Source of the DNA: a virus
Length of the DNA: 26,109 nucleotides
Virus record (IMG/VR): IMGVR_UViG_3300036884_000437
Location: 1 to 26,109 of that record
Reading direction: 5' to 3' (one strand)
In this document: positions 718-23,826 of the stretch, piece after piece
Numbering within the stretch: position 1 is the stretch's first letter
Layout of the letters: each line of letters starts with the position of its first letter
Position numbers and translations under genes: made by a program
Notes under the pieces: generated by a model
Told to the model about the DNA's origin: nothing
What the model saw: only the letters and a program-made list of their open reading frames with translations
Databases searched by the model: none

Positions 718-726
718 TGCTATATT
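718..726 (+). promoter_or_regulatory. Extended -10 promoter for the HNH gene
   Basis: TGC followed by TATATT forms an extended -10 element. No good -35 hexamer sits 17 bp upstream. Transcription would start about 6-7 nt later, at the first base of the pseudoknot arm at 732. The same geometry occurs in two other leaders in this window. Confidence 0.5.
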
Positions 727-731
727 AAGTA

Positions 732-828
732 CAGAGTCCGCAAAACTCCGAAACAAAACACATCCGGTTGCTCTGTCATTAAAGCGCGGCAATTTCTTTG
801 CGGACTCTGCCGCCGCCGGGTGTTTTTT
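732..828 (+). ncRNA. Pseudoknotted 5' leader, copy 1 (HNH)
   Basis: Helix P1 is a perfect 13-bp pairing of CAGAGTCCGCAAA (732-744) with TTTGCGGACTCTG (797-809). Helix P2 pairs ACATCCGG (760-767), inside the P1 loop, with CCGGGTGT (816-823) beyond P1. It has 8 bp with one G-U and gives H-type pseudoknot topology. A U6 run spans 823-828, overlapping the last P2 base, and the ATG follows 12 nt later with AAAGGATG as ribosome binding site. The loop between P1 and P2 is A-rich, typical of H-type pseudoknots. Helix spacings closely match the leaders at 7922-8024 and 23691-23790. A cis-acting attenuator or translation switch is the likely role. Confidence 0.6.
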
Positions 829-840
829 AAAGGATGAAAT

Positions 841-1434
841 ATGGGCAATCAATACACGAACCCTCTTAATCCAAAACATCCATCTGATGAAACCAAAAGA
901 AAAATGTCCGCGGCGGCGATGGGGCATGGCGCTTCCGAAATGACAAGAAAAAAAATCAGCGAGAAAAAGAGAAAACAAATTACGTACATTGTCAACGAAA
1001 ACGGATGTCATGTTTGCACGAGTCACTCCCATACTCGCTGGGGATACTCTCAATTTTATTATAATGGGAAATCCAGTTATGTTCATAGATACATTTACGA
1101 ACAAAAAACCGGGAAGCCGATCCCAGATGGTATGCAAGTTTGTCATCATTGCGACAACCCCGCCTGTATTAATTTTGAGCATTTTTTCCTTGGCACTCAA
1201 GCAGATAATACAAAAGATATGGATAAAAAGGGAAGACGCAAAGTTCATCCTCTTCGTGGAATAGAAAACCCATGCGCAAAACTTACAGAAAGCCAAGTTT
1301 TGGAAATACGATCTTCCCCCTATTCGGCGTATCAACTCGCAAAGGTTTATCCTGTAAGCGAGCGAGCTATAATGTTTATTAAAAACGGAAGAAACTGGAA
1401 ACATTTATTGCCTCTTAAGACATCGATCCGATAA
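841..1434 (+). CDS. HNH homing endonuclease with NUMOD3-like N-terminus
   Basis: This 197-aa protein is a free-standing homing-type endonuclease. Residues about 14-30 (SDETKRKMSAAAMGH) match the NUMOD3 DNA-binding motif. Residues about 79-125 form an HNH_3-type nuclease core, with HRYIYEQ, CHHCDNPACINFEH and GTQADN. The His-His pair plus the Asn and His of NFEH are the expected metal and catalytic residues. Residues about 138-190 (KLTESQVLEIR and later SERAIMFIKNGRNWKHL) look like a C-terminal helix-turn-helix that reads target DNA. It is the only real gene on the plus strand. It converges on the tail tube gene and overlaps its last 20 bases. It is visibly richer in A+T than the tail tube gene, consistent with recent arrival. 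It has its own promoter and structured leader, and no group I intron is evident. Confidence 0.9.
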   Translation: MGNQYTNPLNPKHPSDETKRKMSAAAMGHGASEMTRKKISEKKRKQITYIVNENGCHVCTSHSHTRWGYSQFYYNGKSSYVHRYIYEQKTGKPIPDGMQVCHHCDNPACINFEHFFLGTQADNTKDMDKKGRRKVHPLRGIENPCAKLTESQVLEIRSSPYSAYQLAKVYPVSERAIMFIKNGRNWKHLLPLKTSIR

Positions 1435-6993: not shown

Positions 6994-7028
6994 AAAATAA
7001 AAAGCCCTCGGTTTTATCCGAAGGCTTT
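6994..7028 (-). terminator. Rho-independent terminator
   Basis: The minus strand has an 11-bp stem, AAAGCCTTCGG with CCGAGGGCTTT (one T-G wobble), around ATAAAA, followed by TTTTTATTTT. It closes the transcript of the 196-aa gene after its repeat-filled 3' region. Confidence 0.88.
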
Positions 7029-7033
7029 AGGGT

Positions 7034-7315
7034 GCTTTGCCTTTGCGTTGCTCATCTGCGCTTGGCTTTGCCGTTGCTAAGCAATGCTTTGCTTTGCGTT
7101 GCCCTGCCGGGCCTTTGCTCCGCCGCGCAAGGCTCTGCCTTTGCTTTGCTTTGCTGCGCCGCGCAAGGCCGGGCTGCGCCTTTGCTTTGCGTCGCCGCAC
7201 CTGGCCTCGCCTTGCCTTTGCGTTGCTCTGCTTCGAGTCGCCGCGCCTTTGCCGTTGCTAAGCGTTGCTTGGCCCTGCCTTTGCCAGGCAAGGCCTTGCC
7301 GAGCAAAGCCCTCGC
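7034..7315. repeat. Degenerate 5-bp tandem repeat (NNNGC), about 280 bp
   Basis: The plus strand is an almost continuous run of pentamers ending in GC: TTTGC, GTTGC, CTTGC, CCTGC, TCTGC, CGCGC, AAGGC, with occasional one-base insertions (CTTTGC). On the minus strand, which is the transcribed one, this reads GCAAA, GCAAG, GCAAC. It begins 1 base after the stop codon of the 196-aa gene and ends just before the terminator, so it fills the 3' untranslated region. The period of 5 leaves several frames open on both strands, producing long false ORFs. Confidence 0.85.
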
Positions 7316-7316
7316 A

Positions 7317-7907
7317 CTAATCCAAAACCTTAAAAGTAAACCTGCCTTTCCCGGAATTGCGCCATTGACCAATCCCGCGCAGTTCTCCGTATTCGAGCCA
7401 TTCAGTAACGAGCTTCTCATACTTTTTGTCAAGTATTAAAATATCGAAAACAATCTTTGTGCCCGCCGGAATCTGCTCGCTGTTTGCCAAAGAGATTCTT
7501 TCGCCCTGCGCCGTCTGTCCGCGCAATGGCCGCTGACAATTTCCCATGACCGCGCCCTTTTCCAGAATGAGCGGTATCTGGCGAGGCTTCGGAAAAATAA
7601 GCCCGTCGATCACCTTTTTATAAGCTTTGAGTTCGCTGCTCTTTGTTCCGCCCGCCCGCGTCAGAGAACCGCAAGCATCTTTAAAAAATCCCTTGATCTG
7701 ATAATCCCAAAGAAACGGATTCCCGTCTTTGTCCTTTGGAAAAATCGTCATTGACTTTTCCTCCACCTCCTGCGCACCCATAACCGCGATTTCCTCTTTG
7801 CGCGTTGGTGCGTCCGGCGCATTCGCGGCGATAAACTCGGAATGAATTTCCGGGTTGTTAGGCTGCGTACCAAGCAGCGGCTCAATAAAGGTTAACTCCA
7901 CACGCAT
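7317..7907 (-). CDS. Conserved-looking phage protein of unknown function, 196 aa
   Basis: The ATG has CAGGGAGGTGTTTT upstream, a strong ribosome binding site. The protein begins MRVELTFIEPLLGTQPNNPE, with an unusually well-defined middle (GNPFLWDYQIKGFFKDACG) and a C-terminal glycine-rich motif, RGIGQWRNSGKGRFTF (about residues 176-191). The overall beta-alpha style with this late glycine loop recalls RAMP/ferredoxin-fold nucleic acid-binding proteins, but that is a speculative comparison. I believe similar proteins occur in phages and prophages without assigned function. The gene is an independent unit: near-consensus promoter, 117-nt pseudoknot leader, ORF, 5-bp repeat 3' region and terminator. 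This suggests separate timing or level of expression from the modification cassette upstream and the head genes downstream. Confidence 0.75.
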   Translation of the reverse strand: MRVELTFIEPLLGTQPNNPEIHSEFIAANAPDAPTRKEEIAVMGAQEVEEKSMTIFPKDKDGNPFLWDYQIKGFFKDACGSLTRAGGTKSSELKAYKKVIDGLIFPKPRQIPLILEKGAVMGNCQRPLRGQTAQGERISLANSEQIPAGTKIVFDILILDKKYEKLVTEWLEYGELRGIGQWRNSGKGRFTFKVLD

Positions 7908-8030: not shown

Positions 8031-8059
8031 ATTATATAAAATGCTTACCAGAAAGTCAA
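8031..8059 (-). promoter_or_regulatory. Near-consensus sigma70 promoter
   Basis: On the minus strand TTGACT (8059-8054), a 17-bp spacer, and TATAAT (8036-8031) differ from consensus at one base. The start point would be about 8024, the first base of the pseudoknot. The -35 overlaps the stop codon of the last glycosyltransferase gene. Confidence 0.85.
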
Positions 8060-22743: not shown

Positions 22744-23162
22744 TTTTCCTCGTAATTAATTTTGATTTCAGTTCTCGGACACTCGCCGTATATTTTTATA
22801 AAGTCGATTTTATAAACCAGAGAATCATCGCGCCAGGCGTAACCGTTCAAAGAATCCAAGATTGCTTTTATTAAATTATCGCCGTCCGGCTTAGTAGTTT
22901 TCGGGATCATGCCCCCCGCAGTAATCATCCGCTTTGACAAGCTTTTAATGTAAGGAAATACTGCGCAAATATCGACGCTGATCGGGCATTTGATCGTTGT
23001 TGTTTTGTGGAACCTTTGAAGGTAACATACCCGGACAAGGTTTTCAAACGTCGCGGTTTCCTTTGGGGTGTAGGCCCTGGGAAATCCATGCTGCATGCTG
23101 AACCGTGGACGGCCTTTTGGGACTGGAATGCCGGGAATCGTGAAGATGATTGTCTGCATCAT
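22740..23162 (-). CDS. RusA-like Holliday junction resolvase
   Basis: The 140-aa protein has the RusA endonuclease pattern. IPGIPVPKGRPRFS (residues about 9-22) is the N-terminal strand-loop with the family lysine. KTTKPDGDNLIKAILDSLNG (about 88-107), then YAWRDDSLVYKIDFIK, carries the catalytic acidic residues at about Asp 93, Asp 95, Asp 103 and Asp 112/113. The KPDxDNL core matches well. RusA is a dimeric, metal-dependent nuclease that cuts four-way junctions, used by phages in recombination or to clear branches before packaging. Length is close to the family norm. The gene overlaps the HNH gene by 4 bases upstream and the 62-aa gene by 4 bases downstream. Confidence 0.92.
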   Translation of the reverse strand: MMQTIIFTIPGIPVPKGRPRFSMQHGFPRAYTPKETATFENLVRVCYLQRFHKTTTIKCPISVDICAVFPYIKSLSKRMITAGGMIPKTTKPDGDNLIKAILDSLNGYAWRDDSLVYKIDFIKIYGECPRTEIKINYEEN

Positions 23163-23677
23163 GCCGCCTCTTTTTTAAGATGCAGTTCTTGATGATGCTT
23201 TCTACAGAGCCATCGGATTTCAAGAGGCTTTAAATAGTCGTCGTGATGTCCTTGAATATCTATAATTGTTCCGCAAGTTTCACAGGGCTGCCTTTTTAAT
23301 ATTCCGCGTTCGATGGCGTGATAGGAGGCAATTCTTGCATGATATGCAGACTGGTTTGTGGTGTTTTTTAATTTCGTAATTGCGAGAAGATTGTCCTTGT
23401 TTTTTTGATAATACTTTCTATTGCTTTGGGCGTGCATTCCCGGATGTTCCTTATAATATTTTTTGTTTCTTTCTTTACATTTTAATTTATTATTTGAATA
23501 ATATTCTCTACTTTTAACTGCCATAACTTCGGCATTTTTTAAATAATTATCGTGCTGTCCTTTCTTTCTACATTCATTACATACGCCACGAGTTCCGATA
23601 TTGCCAGAATCAAAAACCCTGATTAAAAAATCGGTCATTTCTTTTTCTTCTCCACATTTCGTACAAGTCTTTTTCAT
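23159..23677 (-). CDS. HNH endonuclease with N-terminal zinc cluster
   Basis: I use the ATG at 23677 (MKKTCTKCGEEKEMTDF), which has GGGAGGGG upstream and directly follows the structured leader. The longer frame runs back through that leader and is excluded. The 172-aa protein has two N-terminal CxxC pairs (CTKC and CNEC), a basic Asn/Lys/Tyr-rich linker with repeated KYYKE/KYYQK elements, and the HNH core CETCGTIIDIQGHHDDYLKP followed by IRWLCRKHHQELH. The HH pair, the second CxxC-like set and the final HH fit a zinc-supported HNH nuclease of the phage homing type. It heads a unit with the RusA-like resolvase, overlapping it by 4 bases. It shares its leader design with the other HNH gene, although the proteins are not close relatives. 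Confidence 0.88.
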   Translation of the reverse strand: MKKTCTKCGEEKEMTDFLIRVFDSGNIGTRGVCNECRKKGQHDNYLKNAEVMAVKSREYYSNNKLKCKERNKKYYKEHPGMHAQSNRKYYQKNKDNLLAITKLKNTTNQSAYHARIASYHAIERGILKRQPCETCGTIIDIQGHHDDYLKPLEIRWLCRKHHQELHLKKEAA

Positions 23678-23690
23678 AACCCCTCCCAAT

Positions 23691-23790
23691 AAAAAATCCC
23701 TGTGCCTGGTATGGCGTCCAAGCAACACCAAGGCCATGCGCTTTGGGGCGCAATTTTACAGGGAATAGTTTTCGGGATGGTGGACGCCAT
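23691..23790 (-). ncRNA. Pseudoknotted 5' leader, copy 2 (HNH)
   Basis: In transcript direction, P1 pairs ATGGCGTCCA (23790-23781) with TGGACGCCAT (23720-23711), 10 perfect bp. P2 pairs TCCCTGT (23764-23758), inside the P1 loop, with ACAGGGA (23703-23697), 7 perfect bp. T6 (23696-23691) follows, and the ATG comes 13 nt later. A small hairpin (TGCGC/GCGCA) lies between the P2 and P1 arms. The segment before P2 contains CCCGAAAAC, similar to CTCCGAAAC at the same place in copy 1. The transcript should start at the first base of P1. Confidence 0.62.
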
Positions 23791-23797
23791 TGATTAT

Positions 23798-23826
23798 AAT
23801 ATACCTTAAAAACGATTAAAGGTCAA
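23798..23826 (-). promoter_or_regulatory. Sigma70-like promoter for the HNH-RusA unit
   Basis: On the minus strand TTGACC (23826-23821), a 17-bp spacer and TATATT (23803-23798) form a good promoter. The predicted start point, about 23791, coincides with the beginning of the pseudoknot leader. Confidence 0.75.

Follow-up and report, generated by a model that had tools for sequence, protein, structure and literature searches.

Pseudoknot-design leaders with their own promoters precede two HNH endonuclease genes and a third gene of an IMG/VR virus

Three genes of an IMG/VR virus are each preceded by a strong or extended -10 promoter and, within 5-7 nt of it, by a leader of 107-119 nt, and the three leaders follow one pseudoknot design. 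The window, by which we mean the whole stretch of DNA that was analysed, is the 26,109-base virus record, which carries tailed-phage structural genes, most of them on the minus strand. Two of the three genes are HNH endonuclease genes, named here HNH1 and HNH2. The presence of three leaders of this pseudoknot design is confirmed. On balance, we lean towards reading each leader as a 5'-terminal pseudoknot that acts in cis to hold down the expression of the gene directly behind it. HNH genes of several other phages show the same architecture as independent cases, and it probably throttles the downstream gene. Selfish endonuclease genes need to be expressed without harm to the phage that carries them, and the RNA brakes known so far are simple T4-type hairpins that rely on overlapping promoters.

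The genes and their promoters are located as follows.

721-726, plus strand: -10 box TATATT of the HNH1 promoter, extended (TGC TATATT)
841-1434, plus strand: HNH1 gene, with an HNH_3 domain (Pfam PF13392, E 1.9e-12), a weak NUMOD3 match and matches to PHROG HNH families
23798-23826, minus strand: HNH2 promoter, TTGACC-17-TATATT
23159-23677, minus strand: HNH2 gene, matching the PHROG 2340 endonuclease (E 9e-28)
8031-8059, minus strand: promoter of the third gene, TTGACT-17-TATAAT (11 of 12 positions match the consensus)
7317-7907, minus strand: third leader-bearing gene, encoding a conserved phage protein that is not an HNH protein and has 56 homologues

HNH1 is transcribed from the strand opposite to that of its neighbouring genes, and no good -35 box was found in its promoter, which has the extended -10 only. 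The HNH2 protein has no match in Pfam, and searches of Pfam, PHROG and NCBIfam with the protein of the third gene gave no match either. When the promoters of the whole window were ranked by their match to TTGACA/TATAAT, that of the third gene came out best, and two of the three leader promoters occupied ranks 1 and 2. Searches for relatives of the virus gave no hit with the portal protein and a single one, at 32% identity, with the terminase; no close relative with an empty (uninserted) site for HNH1 or HNH2 was found in the collections searched. Adjoining the third gene, at 7020-7316, are irregular CTTTGCTTTGCGTTGC-type repeats with a period of 36 and a match of about 73%, and in many other phages members of this gene family are closely preceded by similar repeats, rich in GCAAAGGC.

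Leader 1, in front of HNH1, has loops of 15, 29 and 6 nt and consists of the following parts, all on the plus strand.

732-840, plus strand: leader 1 as a whole, followed by the start codon ATG at 841
732-744, plus strand: P1 5' arm CAGAGTCCGCAAA
748-754, plus strand: CCGAAAC element, in loop 1
760-767, plus strand: P2 5' arm ACATCCGG (P2 has 8 bp, one of them G-U)
786-790, plus strand: P2b 5' arm GCGGC
797-809, plus strand: P1 3' arm TTTGCGGACTCTG (P1 has 13 bp and is perfect)
809-813, plus strand: P2b 3' arm GCCGC
816-828, plus strand: P2 3' arm CCGGGTGT and then U6 (P2' 816-823, U6 823-828)
829-836, plus strand: Shine-Dalgarno region AAAGGATG

Leader 2, in front of HNH2, has loops of 16, 37 and 7 nt.

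23790-23678, minus strand: leader 2 as a whole, followed by the start codon ATG at 23677
23781-23790, minus strand: P1 5' arm ATGGCGTCCA, with the P1 3' arm at 23720-23711 (10 bp, perfect)
23768-23776, minus strand: CCCGAAAAC element, in loop 1
23758-23764, minus strand: P2 5' arm TCCCTGT (P2 has 7 bp)
23737-23752, minus strand: hairpin TGCGC(CCCAAA)GCGCA, with the loop in brackets
23704-23734, minus strand: P2b (GCCTTGGT/ACCAGGC), enclosing the P1 3' arm
23691-23703, minus strand: P2 3' arm ACAGGGA and then U6 (P2' 23703-23697, U6 23696-23691)

Leader 3, in front of the third gene, has loops of 20, 31 and 10 nt.

8026-7908, minus strand: leader 3 as a whole, followed by the start codon ATG at 7907
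8024-8016/7955-7947, minus strand: P1 (9 bp)
7995-7987/7936-7928, minus strand: P2 (9 bp, one of them G-U)
7976-7971/7946-7941, minus strand: P2b, TGTGCT/AGCACA
7928-7923, minus strand: U6

The order common to the three leaders is -10 box, P1 (9-13 bp), crossing P2 (7-9 bp), U6, Shine-Dalgarno and start codon. In all three, the P1 5' arm lies 5-7 nt downstream of the -10 box, which is the expected transcription start, U6 adjoins P2' directly and an A-rich stretch precedes the P2 5' arm. The distance from P2' to the Shine-Dalgarno is 0-10 nt in every leader of the design. In leader 1, the CATCC of the P2 5' arm has a second complement in the GGATG of the Shine-Dalgarno, and in leader 2 the hairpin loop CCCAA is complementary to UUGGG 3' of U6; no good match to the Shine-Dalgarno of this kind was found in leader 3.

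This layout of promoter, P1, P2, U6 and start had been described for the two HNH genes in an earlier, sequence-only reading; each of these elements was found where that reading had placed it, the lengths, loops and spacers it gave for the two copies are right on re-check, and the CCGAAA(A)C element is indeed present in loop 1 (748-754 and 23776-23768). The spacer between P1' and P2' has the length reported, but it is not free of pairing, since the bases directly 3' of P1' pair with bases of loop 2 located 5' of P1'. We added this third helix, P2b, to the design; it is formed by GCGGC/GCCGC in leader 1, CTTGGTG/TACCAGG in leader 2 and TGTGCT/AGCACA in leader 3, and also by TTCCGGC/GCCGGGG in a leader from another virus, L042 (joint p 0.0001 for these four). 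Because P2b pairs across P1', P1' lies inside the loop of a hairpin made by P2 and P2b, which is also where the extreme 5' end of the transcript finds its partner. The same reading had taken the differing stems with conserved pairing as covariation. What the copies share is their architecture and not covariation, as the window leaders and L042 are not alignable by sequence.

The stacking energy of P1 plus P2 was reached by none of 2000 dinucleotide shuffles of the leader concerned, for each of the three leaders. A search of the whole window for the design (P1 of at least 9 bp, crossing P2 of at least 7 bp, and a U-run) gave five matches, which are the three leaders and two weak ones, against 0.25 expected per shuffled window. 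A similarity search of phages with the DNA of leader 1 found nothing meaningful. We rejected a candidate fourth copy at 15.7 kb: it has a promoter and crossing pairings, but these lie 60 nt past the promoter and 130 nt before the gene, and its loop-loop pairing is no rarer than in shuffles. On the minus strand at 15716-15540, a TTGACA promoter is followed by a long leader that has three hairpins with complementary loops (GTTCGGG, CCCCGAAC and GTTCGGGG); no relatives of this leader were found in phages.

The order of folding was modelled on prefixes of growing length for leaders 1-3 and three leaders from other viruses (L042, L080 and L156), allowing nested pairs only and hence no pseudoknots. 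In this nested-only model, each of the six leaders has P1 formed (P>=0.94) at a stage when P2' is still missing, and once P2' has been made P2 displaces P1 in five of them, leader 1 being the one that retains P1. The minimum-energy fold of leaders 2 and 3 is the P2/P2b hairpin. As a true pseudoknot would keep P1 and P2 together, the RNA would be either a knot or a sequential switch. The modelled sequence, P1 early and P2 later, is the one expected for a co-transcriptional knot or switch.

The mechanism that we propose would run as follows. Transcription would start at, or a few nt from, the P1 5' arm, and P1 would be the first helix to fold, with P2b and P2 forming around it after synthesis of the final 14-20 nt of the structure. 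The compact knot that we infer to form in vivo would end directly 5' of the Shine-Dalgarno, in the space that the 30S subunit needs, so that translation would start slowly, or only once the knot opens, and a signal might relieve this repression. The P2 5' arm of leaders 1 and 2 has two possible partners, P2' and, over 5 bp, the Shine-Dalgarno, so that refolding could cover the ribosome site itself. It is also possible that some transcripts end early at the U-run that follows P2. Because P2' is at or near the Shine-Dalgarno and the loop has this alternative pairing with it, control of translation start is favoured. If this is true, promoter and pseudoknot would make up a cassette that is a self-contained brake, movable with its gene into any transcriptional context.

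The leader had been presented as a feature of HNH genes. Both HNH genes of the window do carry an own-promoter pseudoknot leader, but the third copy precedes a gene of another kind. Homologous leaders in relatives, on which the sequence-only reading had counted, were absent: none of the 56 homologues of the third gene that were checked has one, nor do the close homologues of HNH1 and HNH2 that were examined, with the exception of L080, which belongs to a distant HNH gene. As these homologues are devoid of the leader, it is not an old property of the genes.

Phage and prophage DNA totalling 2.3 Mb, with 16,791 gene starts, was scanned for promoter-anchored pseudoknots, and only bulge-free helices were scored (none of 4000 in the null set fell below -31). 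Beyond the window, L080 (HNH), L156 (NUMOD4/HNH), L042 and L026 matched, as did a few weaker candidates. Four more, L114, L222, L197 and L231, came from a second scan that covered 3,531 phage genes; all four are HNH genes by Pfam or by an evident HNH motif. At E<=-30, matches were found for 9 of 148 HNH-like genes vs 22 of 3383 other genes (p 3e-6), or for 7 of 146 vs 21 of 3354 when the window was left out (p 1e-4), the HNH-like set having been grown by iterative search and including some non-HNH proteins, with p values of 3e-4 to 8e-4 for a narrower set. L156 and L114 had entered the collection via the non-HNH gene family and not via an HNH search. For L156, L114 and L197, the plan (-10, P1, crossing P2, Shine-Dalgarno, ATG) was found from the gene-start scan, and the genes then turned out to be HNH genes. 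L219, L222 and L231 are relatives of L156; their P2' adjoins or equals the Shine-Dalgarno and their U-run is missing or displaced, the remaining plan being common.

Two sets of chromosomal HNH genes gave little: none of about 20 Desulfobacterota HNH_3 genes whose start could be called had the design, and hardly any of 25 Bacillota HNH genes did. Among Enterococcus phage HNH genes, which are packed in operons, no leader of this kind was conspicuous. These three sets rule out that every phage HNH gene has such a leader. Fairly put, only a minority of phage HNH genes have a leader of this type; these are the ones with their own promoter, and the frequency is higher than among phage genes of other kinds.

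Several observations were made on the leaders of other viruses. L042 (6545-6433, minus strand, virus G003) is a window-type leader with P1, P2 and P2b in front of a 62-codon ORF, which is possibly read through from an upstream start; an HNH gene of the same virus has an int-alpA leader. At L231 (2440-2497), the HNH transcript starts with a 9-bp hairpin, all 7 nt of its loop (CTCCAAT) being complementary to the Shine-Dalgarno ATTGGAGG. L224 (about 2400-2494) and L225 (about 2400-2500), which were also obtained via relatives of L156, are HNH genes with promoters of the Bacteroidetes type; their leaders have two kissing hairpins (loops GTCGCAG/CTGCGAC) enclosed by an outer stem that differs between the two loci by compensatory changes. 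The L231 and L224/L225 leaders belong to yet other folds.

No Rfam model matched anywhere in the window at E<=1, those of SAM-II, preQ1 and other described H-type riboswitches included; a riboswitch or ribozyme of a known class was rejected on this ground, in line with the sequence-only reading, which had not recognised the fold among the H-type classes. The int-alpA RNA (RF02996) has an inferred cis-regulatory role. With Rfam's own covariance model, which was used for all RF02996 assignments since an automatic model built from 22 leaders had a poor structure, the leader of the HNH_3 gene at L197 is an int-alpA RNA (49.3 bits vs a cut-off of 35.8). The leader of the NUMOD4/HNH gene at L222 scored 35.2 bits, slightly below the cut-off (E 3e-6), and that of L302, which is located in the same virus and precedes a gene with a weak I-HmuI-like domain match, 42.3 bits. 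Int-alpA thus precedes HNH or NUMOD4-type homing endonuclease genes in uncultured phages (L197, L222 and L302; viruses G003 and G686), and L114 and L219 have the int-alpA order of parts as judged by eye. It was found in 47 of 297 Desulfobacterota genomes, and it seems to extend beyond the Rfam model. At the int-alpA loci L301-L335 and L222, a hairpin with the Shine-Dalgarno in its loop follows the purine partner in 27 of 32 cases, compared with 21% of shuffles. At int-alpA-type loci, the pseudoknot loop can pair with its partner or, alternatively, with the Shine-Dalgarno side in 26 of 32.

The int-alpA order of parts is P1, UAG, a small hairpin (Pa), CGAAAAG, a hairpin with a C-rich loop, P1', a U-rich stretch and a purine partner of the loop. 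The window leaders resemble it in being phage-associated, in having P1 first, a C-rich strand crossing P1, a U-run and possibly a CGAAA element, and in placing the purine-rich partner strand just before or at the Shine-Dalgarno. The candidate counterpart of CGAAAAG is CCGAAAC in leader 1, CCCGAAAAC in leader 2 and the related CCCGAAC, which overlaps P2, in leader 3, and the pairing of the loop strand with a purine-rich strand before the start is present as P2 in all three. In contrast to int-alpA, their P1 is longer (9-13 bp), their strong P2 lies outside any clear P3 hairpin, there is an extra P2b, and neither Pa nor the UAG, which is the same in all of 22 aligned leaders of int-alpA or int-alpA-like type, follows P1 (leader 1 has ACTC there, leader 2 CCATC and leader 3 an A-rich stretch). 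The RF02996 model gave no match in the window at E<=10, and leaders 1 and 2 also gave none in lax short-range scans. Judged by sequence, the window leaders may well work like int-alpA; membership in this class is not indicated. The link would give int-alpA a testable mechanism, in which the loop pairs with a decoy or with the Shine-Dalgarno.

Among other explanations, the one that we rate highest, although still as improbable, is that the leaders are transcription attenuators. P2, P2b and U6 would then be an unusual intrinsic terminator, delayed or blocked by an early P1 that ties up its loop, and would set the share of transcripts that reach the gene. The sequence-only reading had also suggested an attenuator, from the U-run right after P2; this U-run is there, adjoining P2' in all three window leaders and accompanied by the A-rich stretch before the P2 5' arm, and both the minimum-energy folds of leaders 2 and 3 and the prefix order are consistent with it. 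However, a standard scan of the three leader regions for intrinsic terminators (a G+C-rich hairpin with a loop of 3-8 nt and a U-run) found none, as some 50-60 nt are enclosed by the hairpin here; L219, L222 and L231 follow the common plan but have their U-run out of place or not at all, and leader 1 prefers P1 to P2 when both are available in the nested model. Protection of the mRNA is unlikely: a 5' end buried in P1, together with the knot, would shield short autonomous transcripts from 5'-dependent decay (RppH/RNase E or RNase J), with initiation being unregulated. A P1 that starts, in each of the three leaders, where transcription is expected to begin and the presence of the element before functionally unrelated genes would suit this, but a simple 5' hairpin would be enough for it, and it leaves the position of P2' next to the ribosome site and the Shine-Dalgarno pairing of leaders 1 and 2 unexplained.

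Descent of the window leaders from RF02996 is a claim on ancestry and is compatible with other mechanisms. The shared order of parts (5' P1, a possible CGAAA element, C-rich P2 strand, U-run and purine-rich partner before the start), the presence of int-alpA on HNH genes elsewhere and its co-occurrence with the window-like L042 in G003 argue for it; the lack of any model match, under lax limits on leaders 1 and 2 as well, the missing UAG and Pa, and the new P2b argue against it, and we regard such remote descent as unlikely. Least probable of all, and very unlikely, is an operator to which the downstream protein or a phage RNA-binding protein would bind and so stop translation, by analogy with gp32. 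Autogenous repression via a 5' pseudoknot is known in T4-type phages (PMC3014915), but the stems and loop sizes differ between the copies and the three proteins are unrelated, and a shared binder would therefore read only the shape or the short CGAAA element. We retain the knot that limits translation start as the preferred reading. A wider proposal remains tentative, and we think it more doubtful than the preferred reading: that phage homing endonuclease genes with their own promoter have repeatedly and independently gained a throttling 5' pseudoknot, the window type being a new fold, a co-transcriptional switch with a terminator-like hairpin whose loop is threaded by the transcript's 5' end.

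In T4-like phages, the translation of homing endonuclease genes is held back by RNA structure (PMC2988022, PMC3014915), and the leaders of the window are like those of I-TevI, I-TevII and I-TevIII of T4, segB and Aeh1 mobE in that an RNA structure precedes a phage homing endonuclease gene near its ribosome site (PMC2988022). The late promoter of T4 I-TevI is placed such that its transcripts lack the 5' arm of the structure (PMC2988022). I-TevI-type brakes are simple hairpins on upstream transcripts, and an internal late promoter frees the ribosome site (PMC2988022), whereas in the window a pseudoknot lies wholly downstream of its own promoter. The I-TevI mechanism, which the sequence-only reading had brought up, does not fit: in each leader the -10 box precedes the P1 5' arm by 5-7 nt, and I-TevI timing cannot apply because the promoters precede the whole structure. 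In seg43(25) of Aeromonas phage 25, a stable structure is likewise located just upstream of the ribosome site of a homing endonuclease gene, which it excludes (PMC2988022), but that structure is a plain hairpin. T4 gene 32 is the nearest functional precedent for a 5' pseudoknot on a phage mRNA. The T4/T2 gene 32 mRNA has a 5' H-type pseudoknot that controls translation, called in 2010 perhaps the sole viral case of such autoregulation (PMC3014915). As in gene 32, the window pseudoknot is located at the 5' end of the mRNA, with P1 beginning at the expected start in all three leaders. The gene 32 knot, however, is separated from the start codon by about 67 nt and serves as the nucleation site for gp32 binding over an A+U-rich stretch, whereas the window knot ends 5-10 nt from the Shine-Dalgarno.
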